32,686 bases of DNA. It comes from Planctomyces sp. SH-PL62 (GTDB lineage: Bacteria; Planctomycetota; Planctomycetia; Planctomycetales; Planctomycetaceae). Both the position numbers and the translations under genes were made by a program. The stretch lies in contig CAMDDX010000040.1 in assembly GCA_945893075.1 (NCBI GenBank), positions 1 through 32,686 on the forward strand. Direction: 5' to 3'. Below the pieces are notes generated by a model. The model saw only the letters and a program-made list of their open reading frames with translations, had not been told where the DNA came from and did no database searches. Shown here in pieces: positions 953 to 32,451 of this stretch. Every line of letters begins with the position of its first letter. Position 1 is the first letter of the stretch.

Positions 953-1120
953 CCCTGGAGTGCGGTGGCTCGACACCGCCCTCCATTCATTTGAAATAGC
1001 GATTCCCGAAGTCCGGGCATCGTCGCCGCGAGAGTTGGCTGAGCAATCGCCGTTTTGCTGGCGATCATCGCCGTACTTCCAATTGAATGGAGGGCTGCGT
1101 CAAGCCGCAGCACTCCAAGG
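953..1120. repeat. Long inverted repeat, family A copy 1, between nrtA and nrtB
   Basis: Arms at 953-987 and 1086-1120 pair over about 35 nt with a few mismatches (left arm begins CCCTGGAGTGCGGTGGCTCG). The left arm starts directly after the nrtA TAA. The right arm ends with CTCCAAGG, which serves as the ribosome-binding site of nrtB. Within each arm, GCGGTGG..CACCGC-type segments can also form a local hairpin. A second copy lies at 2915-3100 and a partial one at 26150. Confidence 0.85.
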
Positions 1121-1127
1121 AAATACC

Positions 1128-1910
1128 ATGAACGAACGCAAATTTCGCGGTGATTGGATCGTGTTACCTCTGCTCGGCATCGTCGCCGTCGTGGTGTTGT
1201 GGGCGATCTCCAGCATGACGTGGGCACCGAGCTTGCCGACGCCGTGGAAGACGTGGCAAGTCAGTCAGCCATATCTGATGAAGCCGTTCGAGAAGCGCGG
1301 CGAGCTGGATCAAGGGATCCTGCGCTTCACCTGGTACTCGCTGATTCTGGTGGCGAAGGGCTACACGATCGCGCTCCTGATCGGCACGCCGCTCGGCTTT
1401 GTGTTGGGCATGTCAAAGATGTTTGCGAAGACGTTCGATCCGATCATTCAAATCCTGCGGCCGGTCTCGCCATTGGCTTGGTTACCGCTGGGACTGGTGC
1501 TGTTTCAGAAATCAGAACCGGCGGCGATCTTCACGATCGCGCTCTGTTCGATGTGGCCGACGGTGCTCAACACGGCGGTCGGTGTGCGAGCGATCCCGCA
1601 AGACTATCTCAATGTCGCTCGCGTGCTGAATCTGTCGCGAATGAAGACGCTGCTAAAAATCCTGCTGCCGGCAACGTTGCCGTACATGTTCACGGGCTTC
1701 CGTCTGAGCCTCGGCATCGCGTGGCTGGTGATCGTCGCGGCCGAGATGCTGACCGGCAGCCCCGGCGTCGGCGGTTTCCTGTGGCAGGAATACAACAGCC
1801 TGATCTACGAACACATCATCCTTTGCATCCTGACCATCGGCGTGATCGGCTTCATCCTGGATCGCCTGATGGGGGTCGTCGAACGCCGGCTGCAAGTCGC
1901 GAAGGCGTGA
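1128..1910 (+). CDS. nrtB: Nitrate ABC transporter permease
   Basis: This 260-residue inner-membrane permease would form the channel of a nitrate/nitrite (or bicarbonate/cyanate-type) importer. It has about six hydrophobic segments: near residues 9-28, 80-100, 118-140, 145-165, 195-215 and 230-250. The cytoplasmic EAA-type loop that contacts the ATPase lies around [19 protein letters not shown], in the usual place for BPD_transp_1 proteins. Length fits NrtB. The frame is open from 960, but ATG at 1128 is chosen because AAGGA at 1117-1121 precedes it and the protein then begins [10 protein letters not shown]; the upstream codons belong to the inverted repeat. It sits between nrtA and two ATPase genes, as in the standard nrtABCD order. 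The exact anion cannot be proven from sequence. Confidence 0.88.
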
Positions 1911-1927
1911 TCCATTTTCCGGCTGAA

Positions 1928-2019
1928 GGCTGTCGGCTGAAAGCTGATGGCTGTTATCTCAACTCCAACGATTCGATTTGGGATGACAGCCGACAGCCAT
2001 CAGCTTTCAGCCCACAGCC
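1928..2019. repeat. 27-nt inverted repeat between nrtB and nrtC
   Basis: Arms at 1928-1954 (begins GGCTGTCGGCTGAAAGCTGA) and 1993-2019 are reverse complements with a single mismatch, separated by about 38 nt. It fills most of the 140-nt gap between nrtB and nrtC. There is no T-run after the right arm, so it is not a classical terminator. Its sequence differs from the other palindromes in the window. Confidence 0.85.
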
Positions 2020-2050
2020 GGCCATCACAATCACCGAAAGTGAATCGACC

Positions 2051-2935
2051 ATGTCTGCTCTCTTGGAAACGCCACGAATCACCGCTCGATTCACTGAGCC
2101 GGATTATGTCCGCATGTCTTCGCTGCCATTCGTGAAACTGAAGCACGTCTCGAAAAGCTACGGCTCTGGTCAGCAGCGTCGCGAGGTGCTTAAGGACTTG
2201 AACCTCGACATCGCGCGCGGCGAGTTCGTGGCGATCGTCGGCTACTCCGGATCAGGCAAGACGACGTTGATGTCGCTGCTGGCCGGTCTGATTCGGCCCG
2301 ACTTCGGCACCGTGATGATGGACGGTCGCGAGATCACCGGGCCAAGCCCCGAACGGGGACTCGTCTTTCAGAACTATTCACTGCTGCCGTGGCTGACGGT
2401 TTTCGAGAACATCGCGCTCGCGGTCGATCAACTCTTTCCCAAATGGTCGAAGGAAAGACGACGAGCACACATCGAGCACTACATCGCGATGGTGAATCTC
2501 ACGCCGGCGCGGACCAAACGGCCGCACGAGTTGTCCGGCGGAATGCGGCAGCGAGTGTCGGTCGCACGAACGCTGGCGATGAACCCGGAGATGCTGTTGC
2601 TCGATGAACCGCTCAGCGCGCTCGATGCTCTCACGCGCGCGACGTTGCAGGACGAGATCGAACAAATCTGGGAACGCGACCGTAAAACGGTCTTGCTCAT
2701 CACGAACGACGTGGACGAAGCCTTGCTGCTGGCTGACCGAGTCATCCCGCTGAGCGCCGGCCCCGGCGCGACGCTCGGCCCGGCGGTTGATGTCGATCTC
2801 GACCGTCCGCGCAATCGCAAGACGATTCAACGTGACCCGCATTTCAAACGCTTGCGCAACGAGGTGCTGGACTATCTGCTCGGTGAAGGAGCACGCCAGA
2901 AACCACGCCGCGAACCCTGGAGTGCGGTGGCCTGA
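2051..2935 (+). CDS. nrtC: Nitrate ABC transporter ATP-binding protein, NrtC-type
   Basis: This is a 294-residue ABC ATPase of the nitrate/taurine importer group. It shows Walker [10 protein letters not shown], a Q-loop in [10 protein letters not shown], signature LSGGMRQR, and Walker [13 protein letters not shown]. The switch region reads [13 protein letters not shown], so the usual H-loop histidine is Asn. I recall the same TNDVDEA feature in NrtC of other bacteria, whereas the partner at 3109 has the normal TH. It lacks the C-terminal substrate-binding-like domain of cyanobacterial NrtC. ATG at 2051 follows a weak GAAAGTG-like site. The open frame runs much further upstream, but that part overlaps nrtB in another frame and is spurious. 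The last residues (PWSAVA) and the TGA stop are encoded by the left arm of the following inverted repeat. Confidence 0.88.
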
Positions 2936-3100
2936 CACCGCCCTCCATTCGATGGCAGTCACGGCAACCAAATGGCGATCGCTCAACTTCGTGAGTGAAG
3001 ACTCCTTTTCCAATGCGACTTGTCACGACGAGTCGTTTCGTAATCAGTAACTCGATTCCGCAATTGATGGAGGGCGGCGTCGAGCCGCCGCACTCCAGGG
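2915..3100. repeat. Long inverted repeat, family A copy 2, between nrtC and nrtD
   Basis: Arms at 2915-2949 and 3066-3100 pair over about 35 nt. The left arm (CCCTGGAGTGCGGTGGCCTG) is nearly identical to that of copy 1 at 953, but here it overlaps the end of nrtC and supplies its TGA stop (2933-2935). The right arm ends CTCCAGGG, giving the ribosome-binding site of nrtD. The spacers of copies 1 and 2 are unrelated, so it is the arms that are conserved. Confidence 0.85.
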
Positions 3101-3108
3101 AACTACCC

Positions 3109-4023
3109 ATGAATCACCCCGAGAAATATCTGGAAATCTGGAAGCTGCAGAAGGCGTATCCGTCGCCGAGTGGCCCGCCGGCCGTGATCGTCGGGGACTT
3201 CACACTTAACGTGGCCGAAGGGGAATTCGTTTCGGTCATCGGTCACTCCGGCTGCGGCAAATCGACGGTGCTGTCGATGATCGCCGGGCTGAATGATCCA
3301 ACCGGCGGCGGCATCGTGTTGGCCGGCCGCGAAGTCAAAGAGGCGGGCCCGGATCGCGGCGTGGTGTTTCAAGCTCCGTGTCTGCTGCCGTGGATGACGG
3401 CGTTGCAGAACGTGACGCTGGGCGTCGAGCAAGTTGCGCCGCACAAATCCCGCGCGGAGCAGCGCGGCGTCGCAGCGCACTATTTGGATCTCGTGGGACT
3501 CGGCGATTCGCTGGACGTGCATCCGAACCAACTCTCCGGCGGGATGCGGCAGCGCGTCGGCATCGCGCGGGCGTTTGCACTGTCGCCGAAGATGCTGTTG
3601 CTCGACGAGCCGTTCGGGATGCTCGACAGCCTGACGCGAATGGAGCTGCAACAAGTGCTGCTCGACCTGTGGGCCACCGATCGCAAGACCGCGCTGATGG
3701 TCACGCATGATGTCGATGAGGCACTGTTCCTCTCGGATCGCATCGTGATGATGACCAATGGCCCAGCCGCGCGGATCGGCGACATCTTGGAAGTCCCGTT
3801 CGCTCGGCCGCGCGATCGCCACGACGTCTTCGAGCATCCGGAATACGACCGCTTGCGACAACGACTGATCTCATTCTTGGAGGACCATGCTCAGCATCCG
3901 CAGGCGGACGACGAATCGGTGGACGATCCGCGGAACATCCCCTCGCGCGAGCCGGGGGATCGGGAGTCTTTCTCAAGTCGCCGGACATTTTCCGTGACAC
4001 CCAAGTCCCACGATGCGGCTTGA
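3109..4023 (+). CDS. nrtD: Nitrate ABC transporter ATP-binding protein, NrtD-type, with palindrome-derived C-terminal tail
   Basis: This 304-residue protein is the second ATPase of the importer. It has Walker [11 protein letters not shown]-loop [10 protein letters not shown], signature LSGGMRQR, Walker [13 protein letters not shown] and a normal H-loop in [15 protein letters not shown]. It probably pairs with the NrtC-type subunit, giving one canonical and one altered catalytic site. ATG at 3109 is used because CCAGGGAA precedes it; the frame is open from 2995 through the inverted repeat. The ATPase fold ends around residue 263 ([13 protein letters not shown]). The last ~40 residues are low-complexity and hydrophilic, partly encoded by the two arms of the inverted repeat 3954-4042. 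The stop codon lies in that repeat's right arm. The natural end may have been lost when the repeat arrived. Confidence 0.88.
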
Positions 4024-4042
4024 GAAAGACTCGCGATCCCCC
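3954..4042. repeat. 28-nt inverted repeat overlapping the 3' end of nrtD
   Basis: Arms at 3954-3981 (starts GGGGGATCGGGAGTCTTTCT) and 4015-4042 are reverse complements with two mismatches. Both arms overlap the nrtD reading frame, and the right arm contains its TGA (4021-4023). Confidence 0.85.
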
Positions 4043-4049
4043 AAGACGC

Positions 4050-4113
4050 ACCAGCACGACGCGACAGCGAGTGGTTGTTCGAGAAAAACCACTCGCTGAT
4101 GCGTCGTGCTGGT
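4050..4113. repeat. 27-nt inverted repeat downstream of nrtD
   Basis: Arms at 4050-4076 (starts ACCAGCACGACGCGACAGCG) and 4087-4113 pair with two mismatches around a 10-nt loop. It directly follows the repeat at 3954-4042, so two unrelated palindromes stand in tandem after the transporter operon. A smaller hairpin GACTC-GGA-GAGTC lies at about 4187-4199, just before the kinase gene. Confidence 0.85.
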
Positions 4114-4230
4114 ATTGGAAGCCCAACATCTGGCGACTTCGGCTACACTTGGACGTTTTCGCGTCCACTGTGAGAATTCAGAGCCGACTCGGAGAGTCAG
4201 CCTACGGTGGCCCAGTCAAAGGATTGAACC

Positions 4231-5385
4231 ATGACCGACTTGATCCGCGTTCCCCCGCCTCTCACCGAACCTGAGCCTGTGCTGAACGACTCGTTGCCCT
4301 CCACGCGATTCCTCACCCGTCGCGATCCGCCACACACCGCTAATCACGCGCTGCGCGAGCTTCAAGAGCAATTTCACAACATCATCGCCAGCGCCGACGT
4401 GCGCTGGACCACGCGCTATCGGTTGATCGAAAAGTTGGGGGCCGGCAGCCAAGGGATCGTCTTCCTGGCCGAGCGGCAGGGAGCACACAACATCTCACTG
4501 CCTGTCGCGCTGAAGGTTTTCTCCCCGCAAACTCACACCACATCGCGAGCGTACCGCCACGAAATGGAACGGATGGCGCGCGTCTCGATGCACTTGGCGT
4601 TGATCCAGCAAGACCATGTGCTGGATGTCCAAAACTTCGTGAAATGCCGCGGCGTGCGGATGCTGGTCATGGAATGGGTCGATGGCTTTGACCTGCGGCA
4701 TCTGCTGAAGCCGGCCACTCTGCGCAGTGTGCAAAGCCGGCTCAGCCCCGAACGCGTCGACTACCTGACCGACGTGCTCATCACGGACGGCCCGCAGCAC
4801 TCGCGTTTGAAGCCGGGGTTCGCGATCGCCATCTTGCGCGAATGCCTGTCCGCGCTGGCGGCCATTCACCGCAACGGGATCGTCCATGCCGATCTCAAAC
4901 CGTCCAACATCATGCTCAAGCGGACTGGCAATGCGAAGGTGATCGACTTCGGATTCGCGTTCGAGGTTGCTGACAAGACCGCCCCGCGCGCCTGCACGCC
5001 TCAATATGCGGCCGTCGAAGTCCTGCGCGGAGCGAGTTCGTCTCCCGTGTCGGACCTGGCCAGCTTGGGTTACGTTCTGGTCGATCTGCTGTGCGGCATG
5101 TCTCCCTTCGCTGGAATGCAACGCTTCGCCGATCTCATCACGGCGAAGAAACAACTCCCCGATCGCCTGCCGGAGTTTCTGCCGGCGGAGATTAAGCAGG
5201 ACGAACGCTTACTCGCTCTGTTGCGTGGCTTGATCGCAGCGGACCCCGCCAATCGTTTTCCCGATGCTGAAGCCGCCGACTTATACGACCACGGTGCCGC
5301 CAACTTTCAGCGCGAACTTGTGAAGGGGAACCTCTCCAGCGAATACGAAAACGAAATCCGCTTGTGGTTGCAGGAAGTGGAGTAG
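4231..5385 (+). CDS. Serine/threonine protein kinase (Hanks type), soluble
   Basis: This 384-residue kinase has the full set of catalytic motifs: glycine loop GAGSQGIVF, ATP-anchoring Lys95 in ALKVF, catalytic loop HADLKPSNIM with Asp221, metal-binding DFG at Asp239, and an APE-like AAVE after the activation segment TPQYAA. The first ~55 residues are Pro-rich and probably a flexible tail. No membrane segment or sensor domain follows the kinase fold, unlike many planctomycete kinases, so it is probably cytosolic. An insert (about residues 150-190) separates the N-lobe hinge region MEWVDGFDL from the C-lobe. ATG at 4231 is preceded by AAAGGA at 4219-4224. It appears to be a single gene between palindromes and a terminator. 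The substrate is unknown. Confidence 0.9.
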   Translation: MTDLIRVPPPLTEPEPVLNDSLPSTRFLTRRDPPHTANHALRELQEQFHNIIASADVRWTTRYRLIEKLGAGSQGIVFLAERQGAHNISLPVALKVFSPQTHTTSRAYRHEMERMARVSMHLALIQQDHVLDVQNFVKCRGVRMLVMEWVDGFDLRHLLKPATLRSVQSRLSPERVDYLTDVLITDGPQHSRLKPGFAIAILRECLSALAAIHRNGIVHADLKPSNIMLKRTGNAKVIDFGFAFEVADKTAPRACTPQYAAVEVLRGASSSPVSDLASLGYVLVDLLCGMSPFAGMQRFADLITAKKQLPDRLPEFLPAEIKQDERLLALLRGLIAADPANRFPDAEAADLYDHGAANFQRELVKGNLSSEYENEIRLWLQEVE

Positions 5386-5394
5386 CGAATGCAA

Positions 5395-5424
5395 AAAGCC
5401 CGCTCGACGAATCGAGCGGGCTTT
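5395..5424 (+). terminator. Intrinsic terminator after the kinase gene
   Basis: A perfect 13-bp stem (5395-5407 with 5412-5424, core GCCCGCTCGA) closes a CGAA tetraloop and ends in TTT, 9 nt after the kinase stop. A-run and T-run at the stem ends would let it act in both directions. Confidence 0.8.
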
Positions 5425-5530
5425 CGCTGTGGCACACAGTGAGTCCGGAAGCGTGGCTTCCTTGCCGGCGGCGAACATTCCTGTTCAACGCTTCGCGGAC
5501 GCGCTGGGCCTTGGTTCTGTTCCGTAAATC

Positions 5531-5589
5531 AGCCGCAGGGCGCTAGCCCCGGTTTGTATGACGAGAACCGGGGCTAGCGCCCTGCGGCT
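5531..5589. repeat. Perfect 24-nt inverted repeat between convergent genes
   Basis: Arms 5531-5554 (starts AGCCGCAGGGCGCTAGCCCC) and 5566-5589 are perfect reverse complements around an 11-nt loop. It lies between the kinase terminator and the stop codon (5602-5604) of the minus-strand small gene. It lacks a T-run. Confidence 0.9.
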
Positions 5590-5601
5590 CATTTGCAAAA
5601 C

Positions 5602-5919
5602 TTAGAACACATCCAGAACGAAGTGATGGCCTTTGTGGTACGGCTGCGCGGTGTCGTGGAAGTTGTGCCAGTTCTTGTTGAGCACCGGGATGCGCTGCGA
5701 TGGCCCATACCGGTAGTACAAGTTGTCGTTGCTCCCTTGCGGCCGCTGGAAGTTGTGCGGGTAGTACAGGAACGGGTAGTACATGAACCGATTCCAATCG
5801 GTCGGTTGCCCGCGTCCGGCAGCCTGGGCGGTCGAGCCGCCAAACTGTGTTGCCGCGGCCACCGCCAAGCAGAACAGCCCTGTGGTCAGAATTCGTCGCA
5901 GCGTGATTCGTCGCAGCAT
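5602..5919 (-). CDS. Small secreted Tyr/His-rich protein
   Basis: The protein has 105 residues. A clear signal peptide covers residues 1-33 (basic start MLRRITLRR, hydrophobic core, AQA cleavage site). The mature part is short and aromatic, with RFMYYPFLYYPHNF, LYYRYGPSQRIPV and a His-rich end HKGHHFVLDVF. I recall planctomycete families of this kind, with the YPHNF motif, that are automatically labelled calmodulin-binding; I give that label little functional weight. AGGAG at about 13 nt upstream of the ATG on the minus strand supports the start. It is divergent from the peptidase gene at 6146 and convergent with the kinase. It is probably periplasmic or envelope-associated; role unknown. Confidence 0.72.
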   Translation of the reverse strand: MLRRITLRRILTTGLFCLAVAAATQFGGSTAQAAGRGQPTDWNRFMYYPFLYYPHNFQRPQGSNDNLYYRYGPSQRIPVLNKNWHNFHDTAQPYHKGHHFVLDVF

Positions 5920-6065
5920 GGTCCGCGTGCTCCTGAGTCTTCAAAGTCGGACAGAGTGCCCTCCCTATCATCGGCATCGGCACGATCCGCACCGCAGGAA
6001 AAACCGGCAGAGCTTTTCAGACCGGCAAACTCTTCCGCTTGAGCCGTGTGTTCGATCGGCCATAA

Positions 6066-6120
6066 CGTAGCCGCACTCGCCAGAGTGCGGGCGGCCCGCG
6101 TTCTGGCGAACGCGGCTACG
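6066..6120. repeat. 19-nt inverted repeat, family F copy 1
   Basis: Arms 6066-6084 (CGTAGCCGCACTCGCCAGA) and 6102-6120 pair with two mismatches around a GC-rich centre. It is 26 nt upstream of the M28 peptidase start. The first 26 nt are repeated exactly at 14349-14374. Confidence 0.85.
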
Positions 6121-6145
6121 GTTTCTCTCAACAACGGAGTCTGCG

Positions 6146-7366
6146 ATGTCTCGATTCGTTCGATGTCTGCTCGCCTTGGCCTGGGTCGCGACATCGGTCT
6201 ACGCCGACGATCTGCCGAACGAATGGGAAGGCTCAATCAAGCCGGAGCACGTCCGCCCGCACGTCGAGTTTCTGGCAAGCCCTCAACTCGCGGGGCGATC
6301 CGGAGCCAATTCGAACAAAGCGGCCGACTACCTGATTCAGCAGTTTCGCAAATCAAAACTTCGGCCACTGTTCCCGGACAAAGACTTTGAGCAACCGATT
6401 CCCACGTCGGCCGAAGAGCGCGAGGAAAACGCCAACCCAGCCAACGGGGGTGGCGACGCCGATCCGCCGCTCAAGACGCCGCGCATCATCGGCCGCAACG
6501 TCGGTGCCTTCCTGGAAGGGAGCGACCCGGAACTGCGCGATGAACTGATCGTGATCGGAGCACACTTCGATCATCTCGGCGTTCGCAAAGGGGCGGTCTA
6601 TCGCGGCGCGGACGACAACGCGAGCGGCACGTCCATGATGCTGGAAGTCGCTCGGCAGTTGGCCACGGCGAAGCGGCGGCCCAAGCGGAGCATCGTCTTC
6701 GTCGGCTTTGATCTCGAAGAACAGATGCTGTGGGGTTCGCGCTGGTTTGTCGCGCATCCGCCATTTGAACTCAGTCGCGTCAAGCTGTTCATCACCGCCG
6801 ACATGATTGGCCGGTCGCTGGGCGATCTGCCGCTGCCGATCGTCTTCGTAATGGGCAGCGAGCACGCGCCGCGCTTGAAGACATTGCTCGACGATGTCGG
6901 CACGCCGCGCGGTTTGGAAGTCGCGCGGCTGGGCGTCGATCTGATCGGCGTGCGCAGCGACTATGGGCCGTTCTGGGGTGAGAAGATTCCGTTCCTGTTT
7001 TTCTCAACCGGCGAGCATCCCGATTACCACACGCCGCGCGACGTGCCGGAGAAACTCGATTTCGACAAGATCGCGCGTGTGTCGAGCCTCGTCCTGAAAG
7101 TCGTCGAGGGAGCGGCGAACTCGGTCACTGCTCCGGAGTGGATCGACGAAGTCCCGCCCGATCTCGACGAGGTCAAAGCCGTGCAGCGCATCACTGACTC
7201 GCTGCTGAAAGCCGGCGAGAAGAAACCGCTCACCGACCTGCAACGGCTGATCGTCACGCAGGCTCACAACAAGTGTCAGCAGATTCTCGATCGCGGCACA
7301 TTCAACGCCGACGATCGCAAATGGCTGATCCGAATCTCGCAGTTGCTGCTGCTGTCGGTGTTCTGA
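6146..7366 (+). CDS. Secreted M28-family zinc aminopeptidase
   Basis: The protein has 406 residues and a signal peptide (about 1-20, ending VYA before DDLPNEW). A short linker leads into an M28 peptidase fold with every metal ligand in order: HFDHLG (His140, Asp142), GADDNASG (bridging Asp157), FDLEEQ (catalytic Glu and ligand Glu), DMIGR (Asp) and YHTPRD (His). These bind two zinc ions and cleave N-terminal residues from peptides. About 80 residues after the catalytic domain are helical and unassigned (KAVQRITDSLLKAGEKK...), ending in a hydrophobic SQLLLLSVF. Ribosome-binding site: ACGGAG, 6133-6138, before ATG at 6146. Probably exported to take part in peptide degradation; a protease-associated domain is absent. 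Confidence 0.87.
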   Translation: MSRFVRCLLALAWVATSVYADDLPNEWEGSIKPEHVRPHVEFLASPQLAGRSGANSNKAADYLIQQFRKSKLRPLFPDKDFEQPIPTSAEEREENANPANGGGDADPPLKTPRIIGRNVGAFLEGSDPELRDELIVIGAHFDHLGVRKGAVYRGADDNASGTSMMLEVARQLATAKRRPKRSIVFVGFDLEEQMLWGSRWFVAHPPFELSRVKLFITADMIGRSLGDLPLPIVFVMGSEHAPRLKTLLDDVGTPRGLEVARLGVDLIGVRSDYGPFWGEKIPFLFFSTGEHPDYHTPRDVPEKLDFDKIARVSSLVLKVVEGAANSVTAPEWIDEVPPDLDEVKAVQRITDSLLKAGEKKPLTDLQRLIVTQAHNKCQQILDRGTFNADDRKWLIRISQLLLLSVF

Positions 7367-7386
7367 TCTCATCGCCTCCGGGCTTG

Positions 7387-7499
7387 CCCCGGTGGTTCCC
7401 GCGCTCTGAAGCTACGGTGCCGAAGAACGAAAGACGCCACGACCGAAGCCTTGCTGAGCGTTCGTGGCCCGTAGCTGCAGAGCGCGGGAACCACCCCGG
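7387..7499. repeat. 31-nt inverted repeat between convergent genes
   Basis: Arms 7387-7417 (starts CCCCGGTGGTTCCCGCGCTC) and 7469-7499 pair with about three mismatches. It fills the gap between the M28 peptidase stop and the Fae-like stop (7520). No T-run. Confidence 0.85.
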
Positions 7500-7519
7500 C
7501 GAGCGGGGTGGCGGGATTC

Positions 7520-8065
7520 CTAAATCTGCCCGTCCAGCGCCATTTGATGGAAGCAGTGGGTCGTCTTCTCTTGGTTCTCCAGCAGCCAGTCGATCGACGG
7601 TTCGTTGTGCATCGCTTTGTGAATCGCTTTGGCGGTAGCAGCGCGGTGGGTTTGAAACAAAATCGCGTGGTCGATCTTCTCGTGGACGACGCTGGGGTCC
7701 AGCCAGACCGAGATGATGATGCCCAGATCGTTGGCCTTCTCTTTGGGGATGTCGCCGGCTCGGACGGCGTCCAGCACGCCGTTGGCGATGGCGGCCTGCA
7801 CGGTCCCCATCAGGATGTTCGTGTACTTCTCGTTGTTGACCGTCACCTTGCTGACCATCACCGTCGCCGGTCGGACTTGAACGTCGCAGTTGAGGATCGC
7901 GAAAACCTTCGAGTGTCCTTTCGTCTGATCGCCGATCATGTTCGCGATGGCGTTTCCGACCGGTCCATCAAGCTCGCCGATCACGACTTCCGGTTCCGCC
8001 GCCGACCAGGCGGGGGCGGCTTCGACCAAGGCTTCTCCGGTGCGCATCACAATTCGCTGACTCAT
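7520..8065 (-). CDS. Formaldehyde-activating enzyme (Fae) family protein
   Basis: The protein has 181 residues and resembles Fae, which condenses formaldehyde with tetrahydromethanopterin. Shared landmarks in order: GEALV near the start, VRPATVMVSKVTV (Fae KPNTLMFNKVTI), GTVQAAIANGVLDAV, IPKEKANDLGIIISV (Fae IPADEADDLYVLVGV), and the C-terminal RAATAKAIHKAMHNEPS (Fae EATKLSIQRAVNGEP) ending THCF. The region corresponding to the Fae segment VAHIDLIIG reads AAEPEVVIG, so the His proposed to be catalytic is apparently Glu. It may be a Fae-like paralogue rather than the main enzyme. The ATG at 8065 follows AAAGGA on the minus strand; the upstream extension of the frame is non-coding. No other C1-transfer gene is nearby. 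Family likely, activity uncertain. Confidence 0.78.
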   Translation of the reverse strand: MSQRIVMRTGEALVEAAPAWSAAEPEVVIGELDGPVGNAIANMIGDQTKGHSKVFAILNCDVQVRPATVMVSKVTVNNEKYTNILMGTVQAAIANGVLDAVRAGDIPKEKANDLGIIISVWLDPSVVHEKIDHAILFQTHRAATAKAIHKAMHNEPSIDWLLENQEKTTHCFHQMALDGQI

Positions 8066-22181: not shown

Positions 22182-23564
22182 ATGAGAGCCATTGTGTTGG
22201 GATTGGTGGCGATCGCCACCCTCGCCGCCGCGAGCACTGCTCAAGCCGGCGGCTATTGTGGTAGCTGCAACTACGGTAGTTGCCCCACGAGCGCTTGTCA
22301 GCCATCGGCGTGCTACACGTCGTGCAAGGTCGAACGTCAGACCTGCTATCGCACCGTTTATGAAACGGTCTACGAACCCGAACAAGTCACCTGCAACAAG
22401 ACAGTTTATGAAACCGTTTGGGATGAGCAGCAAGTCACGTGCAACAAGACGGTCGTCGAGACCGCCTATCGCGAGCAGACCTACACGGTCTGCCGCCAAG
22501 TCGCCGAGACCTCGGCGCGCGAGGAACGCTACACGGTGATGAAGCAGATCAATGAGACCTGCGAGCAAGAACGCAGCTACACCGTCTGTAAACCGGTTTG
22601 GGAAGAATCCGTTCGCGAGTGCCGTCGCACCGTTCAGAAGCAAGTCTTCGAGGACAGCTTCCGCGAGTGCCGACGCACCGTGATGCGTCCCGTGACGGAA
22701 ACGATCAATCGCGAAGTTTGTCACACGGTCATGCGACCGGTCACTCGCTGCGCGACGGTCCCGCAAGTTTGCGGCCAGTGGGTCTGCAAGCAAGATTGCT
22801 ACTACGGACTGCCGACGCCCAAGTGGCAATGCAATCCGTGCAGCCCGACCCCGACACTGGGTTGGCAGCCGAATGTGACGCCGATCACTTATCGAGTCTG
22901 GCAAACGCAGGTCGTGCAACGCCAAGTCAATTACACGACTTACGAGCCGCAAGTCGTCCGTCAGATTTGTCCTCAACAAGTTTGCCGCTACGTTCCTGAG
23001 GTCGTCGTGGATCGCATCCCGGTTCGCACCTGCCGCATGGTGAATGAGGAAGTGATTGATCGGATTCCGGTTCGGACCGTCAAGTATGTGAACGAGACGG
23101 TCACTCAAAAGGTGCCGGTCCAAACTTGCCGTTGGGTCAAAGAAGAGCACGTCCGCAGCGTCCCTTGCACGACGTACAAGAACGTCGAAGAGACCAAGAC
23201 CTGCCAGATCCCCTACCAAGTCTGCAAGCAAATCCCCTACGTGGTGACTCAGCGAGTCGCTCGCTGCGTGACCAAGCAAGTGCCGACGACGTACACCCGC
23301 ATGGTGGCTCGTTGTGTGCCGAAGCAAGTGGCTTACGAAGTCTGCTCGATGGTTCCGGTGACGGTTTGCAATCCGACTCCGGCTGGTTGCAATTCGTGTG
23401 GAGTGGCCGCTCCGGCCAGTGAAGCTCAAGAGCACAAGGTCTTGAAGCCGGAAGCCGATCCGGCCTCACAGCCACCTCCGAAGGAAGAAGCACCCACTCC
23501 GAAGGAAGAAGCACCGAAGAATGACGTACCGAAGCCCGCCGAAGGTGCTGCTCCGACCGCGTAA
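22182..23564 (+). CDS. YTV-type cysteine-rich surface protein
   Basis: The protein has 460 residues and a signal peptide (1-22, ending AQA). The mature chain is built from degenerate repeats of about 15-25 residues with Cys and YTV/YETV-like cores: CYRTVYETVYEPEQVTCNKT, then YETVWDEQQVTCNKTV, REQTYTVCRQVAETS, EERYTVMKQINETCEQERSY, and further on CRYVPEVVVDRIPVRTC and VTQKVPVQTCRWVKEEH. This matches the YTV repeat family known from planctomycete cell-envelope proteins. A Cys-poor Pro/Glu tail (PPPKEEAPTPKEEAPKNDVP) closes the protein. TGAGGAGAC (22168-22176) precedes ATG at 22182. Abundant Cys suggests disulfide cross-linking at the cell surface. A long antisense frame over the same DNA is a composition artefact. 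Confidence 0.85.
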   Translation: MRAIVLGLVAIATLAAASTAQAGGYCGSCNYGSCPTSACQPSACYTSCKVERQTCYRTVYETVYEPEQVTCNKTVYETVWDEQQVTCNKTVVETAYREQTYTVCRQVAETSAREERYTVMKQINETCEQERSYTVCKPVWEESVRECRRTVQKQVFEDSFRECRRTVMRPVTETINREVCHTVMRPVTRCATVPQVCGQWVCKQDCYYGLPTPKWQCNPCSPTPTLGWQPNVTPITYRVWQTQVVQRQVNYTTYEPQVVRQICPQQVCRYVPEVVVDRIPVRTCRMVNEEVIDRIPVRTVKYVNETVTQKVPVQTCRWVKEEHVRSVPCTTYKNVEETKTCQIPYQVCKQIPYVVTQRVARCVTKQVPTTYTRMVARCVPKQVAYEVCSMVPVTVCNPTPAGCNSCGVAAPASEAQEHKVLKPEADPASQPPPKEEAPTPKEEAPKNDVPKPAEGAAPTA

Positions 23565-24798: not shown

Positions 24799-24855
24799 GT
24801 GGGGCAGATTTTCAACCTGCCCGGACTGAGCGGGCACGTTGAAAACCTGCCCCAC
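24799..24855. repeat. 25-nt inverted repeat upstream of the sulfite-oxidase-like gene
   Basis: Arms 24799-24823 (starts GTGGGGCAGATTTTCAACCT) and 24831-24855 pair with two mismatches around a 7-nt loop. It stands next to the repeat at 24689-24779, forming a second tandem pair of unrelated palindromes. It ends 28 nt before the next start codon. Confidence 0.88.
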
Positions 24856-24883
24856 GAAGCCGCCTCATTTTCTGGAGCATCCC

Positions 24884-26146
24884 ATGTCCGCTTTCGATGA
24901 GTTCTTGAATGAGCACCAGCACCTGACACGGCGATTCTTCTTGAGCGTGAGTACGCTCGGCGCGGCAGTATTGGCCGTCGGATCGCAGGCCGCACGAGCC
25001 AATGAGCTTTCTCCGGAGTTGGCCGAGGCGATCGGGAAGCTCGAATCGTTTCTGACGCCGCTCGACAAGTTCCGCGATGTGTCGCGCGGCAAGCCGTTGC
25101 CGCATTCGCTGCCGCCGGAGAAGAAGGCGGAAGTCGGACTCACGCGTGAAACGTGGAAACTCGAAGTCATTTCCGACACCGATAAGTCGGCCACGCGCCT
25201 CAGAAAGCCGATGACCAAAACCGACGGCACTGCGCTCGATTTCAACGGGCTGATGCAGATTGCGGAGACACACGCGGTGCGGTTCGCGAAGGTGATGACC
25301 TGCCTCAACATTGGCTGCCCGCTGGGCACCGGCATTTGGGAAGGGGTTCCGCTGCGCGAGATCATTTGGCGCACGCAGCCAGTCGAGAATTTGCGGCGCG
25401 TGTTTTACTACGGCTATCACAACGACGAACCGGGGCAGATGTTTCGCAGCTCGCTGCCGATCGGCCGAGTTCTCGAAGATCCGTTTGATCTGCCGCCGGT
25501 GATTCTGTGCTACAAGCTCAACGGCCAGTTCTTGTCGCCCGAGCGCGGCGGGCCGGTGCGCGTGGTCGTTCCGGAAGCCTACGGCTTCAAGTCGATCAAG
25601 TGGCTGAGTCATGTCGTGCTGACGAATTTCGCGGCGGCGAACGACACCTACATCGACGGCAACAACGACGTCGATAGTCCGCTGAAAACGTGGGCCGCGA
25701 CGTTGTCCGTGCCGAAGGAAGTCGCCGCCAATCAGCCGATCCCCGTCACCGGCTATGCGCAGGTCGGCATCTCCGGCTTGAGCAAAGTCCAAGTTTGGAT
25801 TTGTCCGAAAGGGACTGAACCGGAGGGCGACCCCAACTTCCTCACCGCGGCTTGGGCCGACGCGACGATTCTCGATCCACCGAAAACCGGCAACTGGGGC
25901 GGTGATCTACCAGACAACAAGATCCCAGCGAACACTCAGGGCTTCGATGCCGATGGCCGACCGAAGACCTGGCCGATGCGGCTGAGCAAAGTCCACTGGG
26001 CCGCGCTGCGACCGGGACTACCGGCCGGCGAATACACACTTCGGTCGCGCACCGTGGATGAAAAAGGACACGCTCAACCGATGCCGCGACCGTTCAAGAA
26101 GTCCGGTCACGCGGCGATCGAGCAAGTGAGTCTGGTCGTGAAATAG
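24884..26146 (+). CDS. Tat-exported sulfite-oxidase-like molybdopterin oxidoreductase
   Basis: The protein has 420 residues. A twin-arginine-like signal (TRRFFLSVSTLGAAVLAVGSQAARA) starts the chain. The central domain resembles the sulfite oxidase/YedY molybdopterin fold: VMTCLNIGCPLGTGIWEGVPLREI places a likely Mo-ligand Cys at residue 140, and RVVVPEAYGFKSIKWLSHVVL is a typical strand-helix pair. The C-terminal part (PVTGYAQVGISGLSKVQVW...) fits the dimerisation/Ig-like domain of the family, ending AIEQVSLVVK. Length is near that of bacterial SorA. ATG at 24884 has GGAG 7 nt upstream, while the earlier in-frame start lies in the palindrome. No cytochrome partner gene is adjacent, so the electron acceptor is unknown. 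Confidence 0.82.
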   Translation: MSAFDEFLNEHQHLTRRFFLSVSTLGAAVLAVGSQAARANELSPELAEAIGKLESFLTPLDKFRDVSRGKPLPHSLPPEKKAEVGLTRETWKLEVISDTDKSATRLRKPMTKTDGTALDFNGLMQIAETHAVRFAKVMTCLNIGCPLGTGIWEGVPLREIIWRTQPVENLRRVFYYGYHNDEPGQMFRSSLPIGRVLEDPFDLPPVILCYKLNGQFLSPERGGPVRVVVPEAYGFKSIKWLSHVVLTNFAAANDTYIDGNNDVDSPLKTWAATLSVPKEVAANQPIPVTGYAQVGISGLSKVQVWICPKGTEPEGDPNFLTAAWADATILDPPKTGNWGGDLPDNKIPANTQGFDADGRPKTWPMRLSKVHWAALRPGLPAGEYTLRSRTVDEKGHAQPMPRPFKKSGHAAIEQVSLVVK

Positions 26147-26297: not shown

Positions 26298-28061
26298 ATG
26301 GCGACGGCAGCAGTTGGTTCGGACGTGGCGTTGTGGCAATTGGTTTGTGGCGACGACCGGCAGGCGTTTGCGGAGTTGGTGGGGCGGCATCAGTCGGCGG
26401 TGGCGGCGGTCGCGTACAGCGCGTGTGGCGATTTGACGCTCAGCGAAGATATCGCTCAGGAAGTCTTTTGGGCCGCATGGCGAGAACGGACGGCGCTGTT
26501 GGACCCGTCTCGGTTGCGGGCTTGGCTGTGCGGGATTGCTCGGAATCTGGCCAACAACGCGATGCGGAGAGCACGGCATTCGGAATCGCTCGACGGACGG
26601 ACGGAACAGTCGGCCGGCAAGCCCGAACCGTCGGACGAAGCGGCTTCGCGCGAAGAGCAAGCGCTGGTCTGGCAGGCGTTGGAAGAGATTCCCGATGCGT
26701 ACCGCGAGCCGTTGATCTTGTTTCATCGCGAATATCAATCGGTGGCTGAGGTCGCGACGACGCTCGAACTTTCCAGCGATGCGGTGAAGCAGCGCTTGTC
26801 TCGCGGACGCGAGATTCTGCGCGAGCAGGTGGCGGACTTAGTCGAACGGACGTTGAAGAACAGTCGTCCGCGATCCGGATTCACGACCGCGGTCATCGCT
26901 GGCCTCACGGCTCTTTCGGCCGGAACAAAGTCTGCCGTCGCGGGGACTGCGGCAATGCCAGGTTCGTCGGCCGCCGTGTTGTCGAGCGGCGTAGTGGCAG
27001 CCGGCAAGGCGGCGCTGATGAGTCCATTGATTGGAACGCTGGCCGGCTTGGCGGGAGGCTGGTTCGGAACGTGGCTCCCGGCACAGCTCGCACCGACGAA
27101 TCGTGAACGGCAGCATCTGCGGAGTGTGGGACGACGAATGCTCATCGTCTCGGTGCTGGCCACATTGCTGTTGTTGGTCGCGATCTGGCTGTGCGTCTCG
27201 ATGCGCGCGAGCGGGATGGAAATCGCTGCCATTACGATTGGTTGGATCGTCCTGTTTCAAGGCTACGTCTGGATCGAGTGCCTCGTCTCGTATCGCGCGG
27301 TGCGGCAGATTCGGGCCGAGACGCCGACCGATTCCGATCGCAATACCGCTCCGCTGGCCGTGGCCGCGCAGCGGCTGGCGAATCGTTGGGAAGGGCGCGT
27401 CTATCGCAGTTCTGTCTCGCTGCTGGGTTTGCCGCTGATCGACATCTGCGTCAGCGATCCCGGTTCATTGTCGTCCGGTTCGGCGACTCCGCCACCACGA
27501 CTGCGTGCTTGCGGTTGGATCGCGATCGGCGACCGAGCGGATGGAGTCCTGCTGGCGATCGGCGGCGTGGCTCGCGGCTTCATCGCGTTGGGAGGCATCG
27601 CGATCGGATGTGTGAGTTGCGGTGGAATGTCGATCGGCCTGGTCTCGGTCGGCGGTTTGGCCATTGGAGCGGTGGCCCTGGGCGGACTCGGCGTCGGCGG
27701 ACTCGCGTTCGGAGGCGGAGCCATCGGCTGGCAAGCCTGCGGCGGCGGCGCACTGGCCTGGGACGTCGCCGTGGGGGGCGCGGCAGTGGCCTATCACGCC
27801 GCGTTCGGCGGAGCCGCAATCGCTCATGACGTCGCACTTGGCGGAGGCGTCTCGGCGCTGCACGCCAACGATGACGTGGCGAAGTCCTTCTTCGAGGGAC
27901 ACTGGATGGTGGATTCGTTGACGTGGCTGCAATCGCACAACACGGCATTCCTCGTGACGACGATCATCGTGAGCCTGCTGCCTTCCCTGATCAGCGCAAA
28001 ACTGATGTACCGCCGCAAACCGGCCGAGGCGAATTCTGATCTCCCAAGCGGTCATCCCTGA
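26298..28061 (+). CDS. ECF sigma factor fused to membrane segments and a glycine pentapeptide-repeat array
   Basis: The protein has 587 residues. Residues 20-95 form sigma region 2 (SEDIAQEVFWAAWRERTALL, RLRAWLCGIARNLANNAMRR). Residues 125-180 form region 4 with a helix-turn-helix (SVAEVATTLELSSDAVKQRLSRG). An Ala/Gly/Ser-rich section follows (195-260). Transmembrane helices lie at about 279-301 and 308-332, and one near the C-terminus at 549-570. Between them, residues 415-520 hold a five-residue array, for example GGIAI GCVSC GGMSI GLVSV GGLAI GAVAL, with GG every ten residues. GGAG precedes ATG at 26298. No separate anti-sigma gene follows, so regulation may be built into the fusion. Domain calls for the sigma part are firm; the role of the repeats is unknown. 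Confidence 0.85.
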   Translation: MATAAVGSDVALWQLVCGDDRQAFAELVGRHQSAVAAVAYSACGDLTLSEDIAQEVFWAAWRERTALLDPSRLRAWLCGIARNLANNAMRRARHSESLDGRTEQSAGKPEPSDEAASREEQALVWQALEEIPDAYREPLILFHREYQSVAEVATTLELSSDAVKQRLSRGREILREQVADLVERTLKNSRPRSGFTTAVIAGLTALSAGTKSAVAGTAAMPGSSAAVLSSGVVAAGKAALMSPLIGTLAGLAGGWFGTWLPAQLAPTNRERQHLRSVGRRMLIVSVLATLLLLVAIWLCVSMRASGMEIAAITIGWIVLFQGYVWIECLVSYRAVRQIRAETPTDSDRNTAPLAVAAQRLANRWEGRVYRSSVSLLGLPLIDICVSDPGSLSSGSATPPPRLRACGWIAIGDRADGVLLAIGGVARGFIALGGIAIGCVSCGGMSIGLVSVGGLAIGAVALGGLGVGGLAFGGGAIGWQACGGGALAWDVAVGGAAVAYHAAFGGAAIAHDVALGGGVSALHANDDVAKSFFEGHWMVDSLTWLQSHNTAFLVTTIIVSLLPSLISAKLMYRRKPAEANSDLPSGHP

Positions 28062-28470: not shown

Positions 28471-31400
28471 ATGCGACAACTTTCTACGGCTCACGCGTTC
28501 GGAACGGTTTTGGGTTGGATGTTGTGGGGAGCGATCTCCACCGGAGTGACGGTTGCCGCCGACTGGCCGACCTATCGCGGCGACAACGCTCGCAGCGGAT
28601 CGGCGGCGGAGACCGTTCGAGTCCCGTTGCAGCCGCGCTGGATCGCGAGCGCTCCCGGCGCGCCGCGACTCTCCTTTTCGAGTGCCGAAGGGCGAGTCAT
28701 CGAAGGACATTTGCTGGGGCACCGCGCCAAGTACGATGATGCCATCCATCCGGTGGTTGTCGGCCAGCAAGTGTTCTTCGGGTCGTCGGTCGATCATCAA
28801 TTGCACTGCGTCGATCTGCACACGGGCTCGGAAGTCTGGACGTTCTTCAGCGGCGGGCCGATTCGTCTCGCACCGACGGTGAATGGCAACCGTGTCTATT
28901 TCGGTTCCGATGACGGGTTCGTCTATTGCCTCGCCGCCGCCGATGGCCGGCTGTTGTGGAAGCTGCGGGGCGGGCCGGCGGACGAGTGGTTGCTGGCGCG
29001 TGGCGAGATGGTGTCACGCTGGCCGGTGCGTACCGGCGTATTGGTGGATGGCGGGGTCGCTTACTTCGGCGCGGGAATTTTTCCGCACGATGATGTCTTC
29101 CTGACCGCGGTGAATGCGGCTGACGGTTCGATTGTCTGGAAGCAGGACAACATCAGCTCGCTCGACGCCGGGCGAAACGATTTGTCGCCGCAGGGATATC
29201 TGCTCGTGAGCGACAATCTGCTGGTCGTTCCCTCGGGTCGGTCGCTGCCGGCGGTGTTTGATCGCGCGAACGGACGCATGTTGCACAAGCGAGAATTCGG
29301 TCGTGGGACGGCGGGAGGCGTGGTCGGCAGCGTGCAAGCGTTGCTCGCCGATGGGCAAATCTATTCGGCCGGGCCGCATCATTTGCTCGCGATGGAGCAG
29401 AAGACCGGCGACATGGGTTTTGGCTGGATCGCCGGACGGCAGATGGTCGTGAGCGATGATGCGGCCTACGTTGCCACCGGCGAAGTTGTCTCGCGGTTGA
29501 ATCGTTTGGAATACGCCGCTAACAGTCGCCGCCGGCATCAACTGGAATTGGACCTCACGAGCTTCAACAACCAAATTCGTGCCGCCACCGCGGTCCCCGC
29601 CAAGGCGGTCGAGATTCGCAAGAAAATCAGTGAGGCTCAGGCGGAACTCAAACGCATCGCGGATGTCGGCGTCGTCTGGGAGAAGCCGGCCAAGGATGAC
29701 TCGGCATTGCTCGCGGCCGGTGACCTCGTCTTCCTCGGAGGCAAAGGACGCGTGACGGCTTACTCGTCGAAGACCGGCGAGAGTCTTTGGCAGAGCGTCG
29801 TTGACGGTGAAGCGCGCGGACTGGTGGTTGCCAGCGGACATCTGCTGGTCAGCACGAGCACCGGGCACATCTACAACTTCGCTTCCGCCGATCTCAAGTT
29901 GGCCGCCGTGCCACCCGCCGCGAAGCCGATCGACAATCCATTTCCTGATGACAACCTCACCGCGATGTACCGGCAAGTGGCCGAGGAAATCCTCAAACGC
30001 TCCGGTGCGAAGCGCGGCTATGGCCTCATCGTTGGTAACGAACAAGGCCGGTTGGCTTACGAGTTGGCGAAGCGCAGCGAACTGAAAATCTACGCCGTCG
30101 AATCAAACGCGAAGAACGTGGCGGAGGCGCGAACCAATCTGTCGCGAGCCGGACTCTACGGCACGCGGATCGTTGTCCATCAGGCTGATCCCGCGAACGT
30201 GCCGTACTCCAACTACTTCGCCAACGTCATCGCTTCCGATTCGCTGGTGAAGACCGGCACGTTGGTCGGCGATCCGCAAAAACTCGCCCGGCACCTGAAA
30301 CCCTTGGGGGGTGCGATCGTGCTGGGTCGCCCGGCGGGAGCGTCCGGTAAGCCCATTGAAATCGCTGACGCGACCGCGTGGCTGCAACGAACCGAGCTTG
30401 GCGAACATGCTCGACTCATGGCCGCTGATGGCTGGGCCACGCTCACGCGCGGCGCGCTGCCGGGGGCCGGCAACTGGTCGCATCAGTATGGCAACGCCGC
30501 CAACACGGCGGTCAGTCTCGACAAGCGGGTGAAGGGAGACCTCGGTGTGCTGTGGTTCGGCGATCCGGGTCCGGGTGATATGGTCAACCGTCATGAGGGT
30601 GCGGTCGGACCGCTCGCCACAAACGGCCGGTTGTTCGTCCAAGGCGAAGACAGCATCTCGGCCTACGACGCTTACAACGGCACGTTTCTGTGGAAGTACG
30701 AAAACCCCAAAGCGCTCCGCACGGGCGTCTTCCAAAATCAAAACCCCGGCAACCTCGCGGCGTCGGACGATCGGCTGTTCCACTTCGTCAAAGACCAGCT
30801 CATCGAACTCGACGCCGCCACGGGCGAGACCAAACGCATCCACCGCCTGCCGCCGGACAAGGACGACGGCAAATACGAATGGGGCTACGTGGCGACGGAG
30901 AACGGTTTGCTGTTCGGCACGGCCACCATCCGCAAGGAACTCGAAGCGAAGCTGAAGCGGCGCGGACTGAAGACCGATGACGCGACCGACGGCATCTTCG
31001 CCATCGACATCGAAACCGGGAAACATCTTTGGACCTACAACGGGCAGAGCATCTCGCATCACACCATCGCCATCAGCCCGGAGAACGTCTACTTCATCGA
31101 CAGCTCAGTCACGCCCGAACAACGCGCGGAGATTCTCCGAAAGGACAAGACCGAACTCGCCAAGCTCTCCGGCAAAGAACTTGAGATCGCCGAAGAACGC
31201 GCCAAGAAAGCCGACCTCCGCCAAGCCGTCGCGCTCGAAGCTCGCACCGGCAAGCTGCTGTGGGCCAATCCGGTGGACGTGACCGATTGCAGCGACATCG
31301 GCATCGGCGGCGGCAAGCTCACGCTGATGGTTCACGACAACGTCCTGCTCTTGGGCGGAGCCAACGCCAACGGCCATTACTGGAAGCAGTTCGTCGCCGG

Positions 31401-32451
31401 CGAGTTCTCGCGACGCCGGCTGGTGGCGCTCTCCGCGCTGCACGGCTACAAGCTGTGGGCGAAGGACGCCAATTACCGCCATCGTCCCATCATCGTCGGC
31501 AGCCAGGTCATCGCCGAGCCTTGGTCTTTCGATCTCAGCAGCGGCGAACAAAAGACGCGGCAGCATCCGCTGACCGGTGTGGAAGAACCTTGGAGCATCA
31601 TGCGCACCGGGCATCACTGTGGAATGCTCACTGGTTGCGAATCGGGCATGTTGATGTTTCGCTCCGGAGCGACCGGGTTTTACGACCTCGATTCCGACCA
31701 AGGGACGCGGCATTTCGCCGGTCATCGGCTCGGCTGCTGGATCAACGCCATTCCGGCCGGCGGTCTGGTGATGATCCCCGAAGCCAGCGCCGGCTGCGTC
31801 TGCCTGTTCTCGATCGCCTCGACCATCGTCATGGAACCGCGCGAGACGCGCCGTCCCTGGACGATCGTCAGCGCGGTCGGTGCGCAGACTCCCGTGCAGT
31901 CGATGGCCCTCAACCTCGGCGCTCCCGGCGACCGCAAGGATGCCGACGGCAAAATGTGGCTGTCGTATCCGCGACACAAGGCATATCAGGAAACGTCGCT
32001 CGACATCAAACTGGATCTCAAGCCCAAATTCAAAACGGGCGGCCAATTCACCAGCGTCAGTGAAACGCTGCAACCCATCGACGGAACCGAAGCGCCTTGG
32101 CTCTATACGTCCTGGGCCGAAGACTTGGAACAACTCACGCTGCCGCTCCTCGGCCCGAAAGATCAGCCGGCCACCTACACCGTGCGATTGCACTTCGCGC
32201 GGTTGGGCAACGCAGGGCGCGAGCCGATCGTCTTCGACGTTCAATTGCAGGGAAAAACGGCGTTGGAGAATTTGACGTTGCCGATCACTTCACCGTCGCC
32301 AGCGGAGGATGCGGTCGGGCATGCGACGGCGATCGTCCGCGTTGTCGAGAATGTGCGAGTGACCGACAACCTGGTTGTGGGCTTGATCGCCAAGCAAGGC
32401 AAAGCTCGGCTGTGCGCGATCGAAGTTGAGAGAAACGAAGCCGGACGATGA
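28471..32451 (+). CDS. Large secreted PQQ-like propeller protein with a central methyltransferase-like domain
   Basis: The protein has 1,326 residues. A signal peptide (about 1-30) leads to DWPTYRGDNARSG, the usual opening of planctomycete PQQ-like propellers. First propeller: residues ~30-480, with repeats such as LHCVDLHTGSEVWTF, VYCLAAADGRLLWKL and VTAYSSKTGESLWQS, interrupted by a short coiled coil near 350-395. Residues ~495-665 look like a class I methyltransferase fold: LIVGNEQGRLAYELA (degenerate glycine motif), IYAVESNAKNVAEARTNL and a VIASDSL strand. Second propeller: ~670-1170 (ISAYDAYNGTFLWKYE, IFAIDIETGKHLWTYNGQ). A C-terminal beta-rich domain follows, about 1200-1326. ATG at 28471 has GAGG 6 nt upstream. 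A methyltransferase fold in an apparently exported protein is odd; it may be a degenerate binding domain. Confidence 0.87.
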   Translation: MRQLSTAHAFGTVLGWMLWGAISTGVTVAADWPTYRGDNARSGSAAETVRVPLQPRWIASAPGAPRLSFSSAEGRVIEGHLLGHRAKYDDAIHPVVVGQQVFFGSSVDHQLHCVDLHTGSEVWTFFSGGPIRLAPTVNGNRVYFGSDDGFVYCLAAADGRLLWKLRGGPADEWLLARGEMVSRWPVRTGVLVDGGVAYFGAGIFPHDDVFLTAVNAADGSIVWKQDNISSLDAGRNDLSPQGYLLVSDNLLVVPSGRSLPAVFDRANGRMLHKREFGRGTAGGVVGSVQALLADGQIYSAGPHHLLAMEQKTGDMGFGWIAGRQMVVSDDAAYVATGEVVSRLNRLEYAANSRRRHQLELDLTSFNNQIRAATAVPAKAVEIRKKISEAQAELKRIADVGVVWEKPAKDDSALLAAGDLVFLGGKGRVTAYSSKTGESLWQSVVDGEARGLVVASGHLLVSTSTGHIYNFASADLKLAAVPPAAKPIDNPFPDDNLTAMYRQVAEEILKRSGAKRGYGLIVGNEQGRLAYELAKRSELKIYAVESNAKNVAEARTNLSRAGLYGTRIVVHQADPANVPYSNYFANVIASDSLVKTGTLVGDPQKLARHLKPLGGAIVLGRPAGASGKPIEIADATAWLQRTELGEHARLMAADGWATLTRGALPGAGNWSHQYGNAANTAVSLDKRVKGDLGVLWFGDPGPGDMVNRHEGAVGPLATNGRLFVQGEDSISAYDAYNGTFLWKYENPKALRTGVFQNQNPGNLAASDDRLFHFVKDQLIELDAATGETKRIHRLPPDKDDGKYEWGYVATENGLLFGTATIRKELEAKLKRRGLKTDDATDGIFAIDIETGKHLWTYNGQSISHHTIAISPENVYFIDSSVTPEQRAEILRKDKTELAKLSGKELEIAEERAKKADLRQAVALEARTGKLLWANPVDVTDCSDIGIGGGKLTLMVHDNVLLLGGANANGHYWKQFVAGEFSRRRLVALSALHGYKLWAKDANYRHRPIIVGSQVIAEPWSFDLSSGEQKTRQHPLTGVEEPWSIMRTGHHCGMLTGCESGMLMFRSGATGFYDLDSDQGTRHFAGHRLGCWINAIPAGGLVMIPEASAGCVCLFSIASTIVMEPRETRRPWTIVSAVGAQTPVQSMALNLGAPGDRKDADGKMWLSYPRHKAYQETSLDIKLDLKPKFKTGGQFTSVSETLQPIDGTEAPWLYTSWAEDLEQLTLPLLGPKDQPATYTVRLHFARLGNAGREPIVFDVQLQGKTALENLTLPITSPSPAEDAVGHATAIVRVVENVRVTDNLVVGLIAKQGKARLCAIEVERNEAGR

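Follow-up and report, generated by a model that had tools for sequence, protein, structure and literature searches.

The last gene of a 32,686-nucleotide stretch of Planctomyces sp. SH-PL62 DNA (contig CAMDDX010000040.1; hereafter the window, meaning that stretch at its full length) encodes a protein of 1326 residues that appears to be exported and in which a class I methyltransferase fold is predicted between two propellers of the pyrroloquinoline quinone (PQQ)-like type. Motif I, the glycine loop of this fold, is rewritten in the window protein and throughout its orthologues, from which we infer that the domain neither transfers methyl groups nor binds S-adenosylmethionine (SAM) in the standard way, and that it probably does another job outside the cytoplasm. 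Our reading, held tentatively and at slightly less than even confidence, is that a methyltransferase fold which no longer methylates has been put to new use in an exported protein, as the part of an envelope scaffold that binds a ligand or provides coupling.

A methyltransferase fold with a rewritten cofactor loop

An earlier note, made from the letters of the window alone, had seen a methyltransferase-like pattern at residues ~495-665, and structure prediction bears this out: the predicted fold of the domain is that of a complete class I Rossmann methyltransferase. The AlphaFold2 model of residues 486-680, based on 73 aligned relatives, has a mean predicted local distance difference test score (pLDDT) of 91.7 and a predicted template modelling score (pTM) of 0.87. 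Its best match among solved structures is 3dlc, the putative SAM methyltransferase MMP1179 (Z 17.8 over 173 residues, root-mean-square deviation 2.9, 22% identity), which also comes first by Foldseek (E 1.3e-12) and in a profile search of PDB sequences (E 3e-14). At the level of sequence, the Pfam model Methyltransf_25 (cut-off 27) scores 25.2 bits, and so stays under its cut-off, when the whole protein is searched, and 28.2 bits, over it, when the domain is searched alone; it is matched at E<=0.01 by 63 of 74 aligned domains.

The family behind these alignments was gathered from one genome per species (84,980 species), where at least 489 relatives were found among at least 590 matched stretches, and the loci discussed below (L078-L157) are the best 80 of those relatives, either full-length or cut by contig ends. 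For the domain alignment, 75 of the 80 loci passed a length filter and 73 were used, which with the window made 74 rows; the corresponding figures for a longer alignment were 68 loci past the filter and 59 used, making 60 rows, and motif counts were taken from 81 rows, two of which lack the motif, leaving 79.

The earlier note had also called the glycine motif degenerate, and in the window IVGNEQG does stand where D-x-G-x-G-x-G would be expected. Across the orthologues, however, the pattern is one of largely fixed rewriting and not of random decay. The motif I acid is absent from all 79 rows, having been replaced by V in 58, I in 16, L in 2, M in 2 and A in 1, and the second glycine (Gly2) is Glu in 54 rows and Gly in 10, the remainder having Q, N, D, R, K or A. 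By comparison, among 29 Methyltransf_25 proteins of the window's own genome that served as controls, 27 of 28 in which the site is covered have the acid at the start of the motif, and Gly2 is Gly in 25 of 29 and Glu in none. These controls were drawn from the 30 highest scores out of 43 matches, less one exported paralogue, and so lean to the canonical motif; the site was read in them by position, without realignment.

The ribose-side acid, by contrast, has been kept: 73 of the 79 orthologue rows have an acid where the window protein has E544, on the last residue of strand 2, which is the ribose-contacting position of class I methyltransferases. Measured as column information against a domain mean of 2.31 bits, the loop after beta1 (2.69 bits), the end of beta2 (2.98), the end of beta4 (3.20) and residues 578-585 (PYSNYFAN; 3.57) are all conserved above average, and the rewriting of motif I therefore looks ordered, not decayed, as far as aligned columns can tell. 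The adenine side differs, as the end of beta3 (residues 570-574), the place of the conserved adenine contact in class I methyltransferases, is poorly conserved at 1.53 bits; the window has D573 there, and D reaches a frequency of 0.39 in that column. The SAM-binding roles of these sites are those generally known for class I methyltransferases. With that group, including the Methyltransf_25 and Methyltransf_11 families and 3dlc, the domain shares the complete fold, a relationship in sequence and the strand 2 acid, whereas it differs in its motif I, in its poorly conserved adenine side, and in being exported and embedded in a propeller protein. For the clade of the window, a standard SAM methyltransferase is disfavoured on the three points of absent acid, usual Glu at Gly2 and weak adenine side.

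The picture loosens among more distant paralogues. We assembled a set of 79 domain rows (94 aligned stretches minus 15 short second stretches) from paralogues in the relatives and from further genomes of the phylum; 11 of the rows belong to the window protein and to orthologues close to it, and 40 were picked from matches to a domain profile in the window's phylum. Ten rows of this set have the motif I acid, and five of these ten show the whole acid-G-G-G pattern, so that motif I looks intact in some exported paralogues. Gly2 is Gly in 44 rows and Glu in 13; 64 rows retain the acid of strand 2. On a domain tree of 148 rows, a quick tree built with the motif columns kept in, the state of the acid changes at least 4 times and that of Gly2 at least 29 times. 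The clade that holds the window has a support of 96, its record titles are Planctomycetota and Verrucomicrobiota with one Zipacnadia, and Glu is usual at Gly2 (54 of 63 rows, some of which are copies of one gene). From the paralogue counts and the changes on the tree, the rewriting appears largely settled within the window's clade but lax outside it. The placement of the fold varies too, since in other paralogues it follows directly after the signal peptide or is accompanied by an added LamG domain. One such gene lies elsewhere in the window's genome (L055:2964-6878, on contig C45) and has the methyltransferase-like domain after the signal peptide, followed by a PQQ propeller and LamG. Six paralogue rows have the domain in this place, and where motif I would begin with an acid, five of them have His and one has Gln.

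The exported protein, its relatives and its neighbours

The features of the gene are collected in Table 1. The open reading frame (ORF) starts with ATG, and an in-frame TTG lies at 28456. A frameshift or artificial fusion as the source of the domain order is ruled out, as orthologues in separate assemblies show the same layout in one open frame. Three of the features go beyond the earlier note, namely the malectin-like C-terminus, a helical hairpin in the first propeller and four invariant cysteines in the second.

Table 1. Features of the gene for the exported two-propeller protein, in window coordinates
Feature	Residues	Position	Strand	Basis
Whole gene, exported two-propeller protein		28471..32451	+	ORF, Pfam; orthologues of similar length and layout
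Putative signal peptide (end near ...VTVAA-DW)	1-30	28471..28560	+	window sequence; N-termini of relatives
First propeller, BamB-like/PQQ-like	31-474	28561..29892	+	PQQ_2; matches of the model structure
Predicted helical hairpin inserted in first propeller	345-396	29503..29658	+	model helices 315-341 and 346-366 (model numbering)
Predicted class I methyltransferase-fold domain	about 495-665	29953..30465	+	Methyltransf_25; model; 3dlc match
Rewritten motif I	518-526	30022..30048	+	I520 for the acid, E524 for Gly2, G526 (Gly3) kept
Retained acid E544, end of strand 2	544	30100..30102	+	acid in 73/79 rows
Predicted second PQQ-like propeller	about 670-1135	30478..31875	+	PQQ_2; mostly beta, one helical stretch in the model
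Conserved cysteine block (C1050, C1089, C1109, C1111)	1047-1111	31609..31803	+	column counts
Malectin-like carbohydrate-binding-type domain	1198-1303	32062..32379	+	Pfam Malectin

That propellers flank the domain on both sides, as had been supposed, is supported by Pfam PQQ_2 (cut-off 27.6), which scores 87.7 bits on the N-terminal side of the domain (residues 31-485) and 49.5 bits on its C-terminal side (671-1139). In the AlphaFold2 model of residues 31-1190 (pLDDT 89.1, pTM 0.90) the chain is predicted as one body. Residues 1-444 of that model, which are protein residues 31-474, align, over almost all of that stretch, with solved PQQ-like propellers at Z values of about 29-35 (Rv3035 35.3, tetrathionate hydrolase 33.1, YxaL 32.8, BamB about 30), and the first propeller thus appears complete before the methyltransferase fold starts; as modelled, it is an eight-bladed propeller of the BamB-like kind. 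The second is a predicted propeller for which the evidence is the Pfam match and a mostly-beta prediction. To the plan of BamB-type propellers the window protein adds the hairpin, the methyltransferase fold, the second propeller and the malectin-like domain, and it scores 69.7 bits against the NCBIfam BamB equivalog TIGR03300, far from the cut-off of 285.2. The malectin-like domain is itself a weak match: PF11721 (cut-off 23) gives 23.8 bits with residues 1140-1326 alone, just over the cut-off, and 18.7 bits, under it, with the whole protein, and a search of PDB sequences with this part gave no match at E<=1.

Export, the remaining element of the earlier description, is consistent across the family. 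A loose hydrophobicity rule, combined with a start codon at a suitable distance, finds a signal-like stretch in 73 of the 73 loci with an N-terminus (the other seven of the 80 lack one), with the caution that 18.6% of 4739 internal stretches of the same proteins also pass the loose cut; a stricter cut retains 70 of 73 loci and 2.6% of the internal stretches. This is a simple rule and not a trained predictor, but the stretch ends in an A-x-A-like sequence in 70 of 73 loci, and small residues together with the hydrophobic stretch precede a conserved mature start in 73 relatives. A periplasmic or surface location is the likely consequence. The earlier suggestion that the protein might act in an unusual compartment found no sign in its favour, the signal peptide and the extracellular-type domains pointing instead to the ordinary envelope or periplasm.

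In 40 genomes, the window's and those of 39 relatives, near-full-length orthologues (51-92% identity) were found in 10 of the 39 others: five of the 11 genomes from the same genus, five of the 13 from other genera of the family and none of the 15 from the rest of the class; at most 16 candidates were scored per genome, so these absences are soft. One of the ten orthologues runs off its contig, and distant paralogues occur in many of the same genomes. Within the window's phylum, 55 of 294 genomes are matched by a profile of the domain, and a single genome can have as many as 12 matches; at most 11 candidates were scored per genome, so absences are again soft. Among the matches listed, every one sits in a large open frame, the smallest of 709 residues. 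Farther afield, the best 80 relatives bear the record titles Planctomycetota, Verrucomicrobiota, Armatimonadota, Zipacnadia, Kiritimatiellae, Hydrogenedentota, Acidobacteriota, Poribacteria and Lentisphaeria, names that we took from the records as they stand; at least one of the names looks misassigned, since locus L078, titled Kuenenia, shares 84% identity with the window. As to a viral or mobile origin, the single protein had no match among viral contigs, in a scan that reaches close relatives only.

As to possible published counterparts, Tuwongella immobilis has 28 BamB paralogues of 43-193 kDa (PMC8567305). The two cases have in common many BamB-annotated copies, some of them large, in a planctomycete, and the passages of that account that were compared mention no internal methyltransferase fold (PMC8567305). 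Among the papers listed by a search of open full texts, none is presented as describing an exported protein in which propellers flank a methyltransferase fold.

Upstream of the window gene is an extracytoplasmic function (ECF)-type sigma factor (26298-28061; Sigma70_r2 and r4) with a long, glycine-rich hydrophobic tail that contains GGIAIG-type repeats, and two genes upstream is a molybdopterin oxidoreductase (24839-26146; Oxidored_molyb); downstream the contig ends. A protein with planctomycete YTV repeats is encoded at 22182-23561. Among relatives, we grouped neighbouring genes by sequence cluster, on either side, at the 50 of 80 loci with more than 2.5 kb upstream. These include an ATP-binding cassette (ABC) ATPase near 12 loci, an FtsX/MacB-like permease near 10, a ModA-like double binding protein near 9 and its matching permease near 7, a cysteine-containing protein of no known family near 7, another propeller paralogue near 12 and a sulfatase-like gene near 10, where the transporter names come from Pfam and NCBIfam scans of one member each, at L080, and the sulfatase label from one sequence, by eye. 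The ModA label corresponds to a TIGR01256 score of 128.2 bits (cut-off 62.5) for the L080 member. At that locus (626-7689) a divergent cluster holds the cysteine-containing protein, the FtsX/MacB-like permease, a LolD-like ATPase, the double ModA-like protein, a ModB-like permease and an ATPase, and clusters of this type are found in part at L084, L089, L122, L130 and L138 as well. The cysteine-containing protein, whose cysteines are conserved, was scanned as its L080 member and has no match in Pfam or NCBIfam and one chance-level match in the PDB (E 0.91). None of these neighbour genes was found among the ten ORFs of the window that were scanned, so a link to oxyanion or metal uptake is a lead from the relatives.

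Possible roles of the domain

In the mechanism that we favour, two BamB-like/PQQ-like propellers would be joined by a class I methyltransferase fold without a standard SAM site. With Glu in the glycine loop and the leading acid gone, the site would be ill suited to the methionine end of SAM, and the retained E544 could still suit the sugar-type diol of a small extracellular ligand; binding of that ligand would be relayed to the two propellers and the malectin-like end, or would position them, and the domain would have been kept because its pocket binds it. The altered loop, the kept acid, the export of the protein and the presence of propellers and a malectin-like domain beside the fold are what suggest a ligand-binding or coupling module, and it is speculative that a ligand is bound and its binding relayed to the propellers. 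The earlier note had proposed that the domain binds something other than SAM; given the fold, export and degenerate motif, a non-SAM role is probable, and the ligand itself is unproven. A more specific proposal, which strikes us as rather doubtful, is that of a widespread exported receptor-like family in which the fold, with Glu set in the glycine loop at the place of the methionine end of SAM and the diol-binding acid retained, has been turned into a non-SAM pocket that reads an extracellular nucleoside- or sugar-like molecule and is coupled to the propellers and a lectin-like domain.

Several observations weigh against a ligand-binding module. Conservation around the pocket can be partly structural, as with the helix N-cap D546 and the FAN and KPxGG of the Rossmann core. 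The 10 orthologue rows that keep Gly at Gly2 and the 10 paralogue rows that keep the acid, with their five acid-G-G-G patterns, mean that the exported family as a whole may include SAM binders. Finally, Gly2 is a labile site, given its many changes on the domain tree, and 9 of the 63 rows of the window's own clade do not have Glu.

The main rival is that the domain is a structural spacer, a dead methyltransferase fold that binds no ligand and sets the distance and angle of the propellers, and we regard this as a real possibility while leaning against it. It would fit the universal loss of the motif I acid, the prediction of the chain as one body, and the loss of the third glycine as well in some paralogues; it would also fit the modest conservation of residues 495-672, which average 2.33 bits where most propeller segments reach 2.66-3.09, although the stretch 396-480 of the first propeller is at 2.20. 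A spacer does not, however, account well for a pocket rim that is conserved above the domain average or for a ribose-side acid that persists in most orthologue and paralogue rows alike, and in some paralogues the domain is N-terminal and thus has no place between propellers.

Less probable still is a PQQ- or metal-dependent periplasmic redox enzyme whose active site would be the cysteine-rich second propeller, with the methyltransferase fold as an accessory, a proposal that we think unlikely. Its appeal lies in the PQQ-like blades, in the ModA-like genes near 9 of 50 loci (a label taken from one of them) and in C1050, C1089, C1109 and C1111, which are invariant among the rows with a letter at these positions (74/74, 73/73, 72/72 and 72/72). 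These cysteines, which in the window and its relatives form a GHHC plus GCxC pattern, are more conserved than the methyltransferase fold and may bind metal or form disulfides. Against the proposal, they may be no more than plain disulfides, and no ModA-like gene turned up among the ten ORFs scanned in the window. There is no adjacent Cys-Cys pair in the window protein, a vicinal disulfide next to PQQ being a feature of PQQ-dependent alcohol dehydrogenases, and no CxxCH in the 43 family frames scanned. All three NCBIfam quinoprotein models listed score under their cut-offs, the one for the alcohol dehydrogenases (TIGR03075) with 60.3 bits where 480.05 are required. A redox role would be compatible with any of the other readings, so the degrees of confidence given to these readings need not add up to one.

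An exported SAM-dependent methyltransferase, or a sensor of SAM or S-adenosylhomocysteine, drawing on envelope pools from lysed cells or export, is less likely again, for even though Methyltransf_25 is matched, the ribose-side acid kept and the motif I acid retained in those few paralogue rows, the window's clade lacks that acid, usually has Glu at Gly2 and conserves the adenine side poorly, and no supply of SAM to the periplasm is known.

Implications for an exported fold

For the most part, class I methyltransferases are seen as SAM enzymes of the cytosol. In this family the same fold turns up in exported proteins, its cofactor loop consistently altered, in records that bear the titles of several bacterial phyla and in up to 12 copies per genome. 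If the domain is only a spacer, the family is a warning against naming such proteins methyltransferases. If, as we tentatively favour, its pocket binds something else, it would be a clear case of the fold of a cofactor enzyme reused outside the cytoplasm, and would offer a way into the large number of planctomycete BamB-like proteins that are still uncharacterised.

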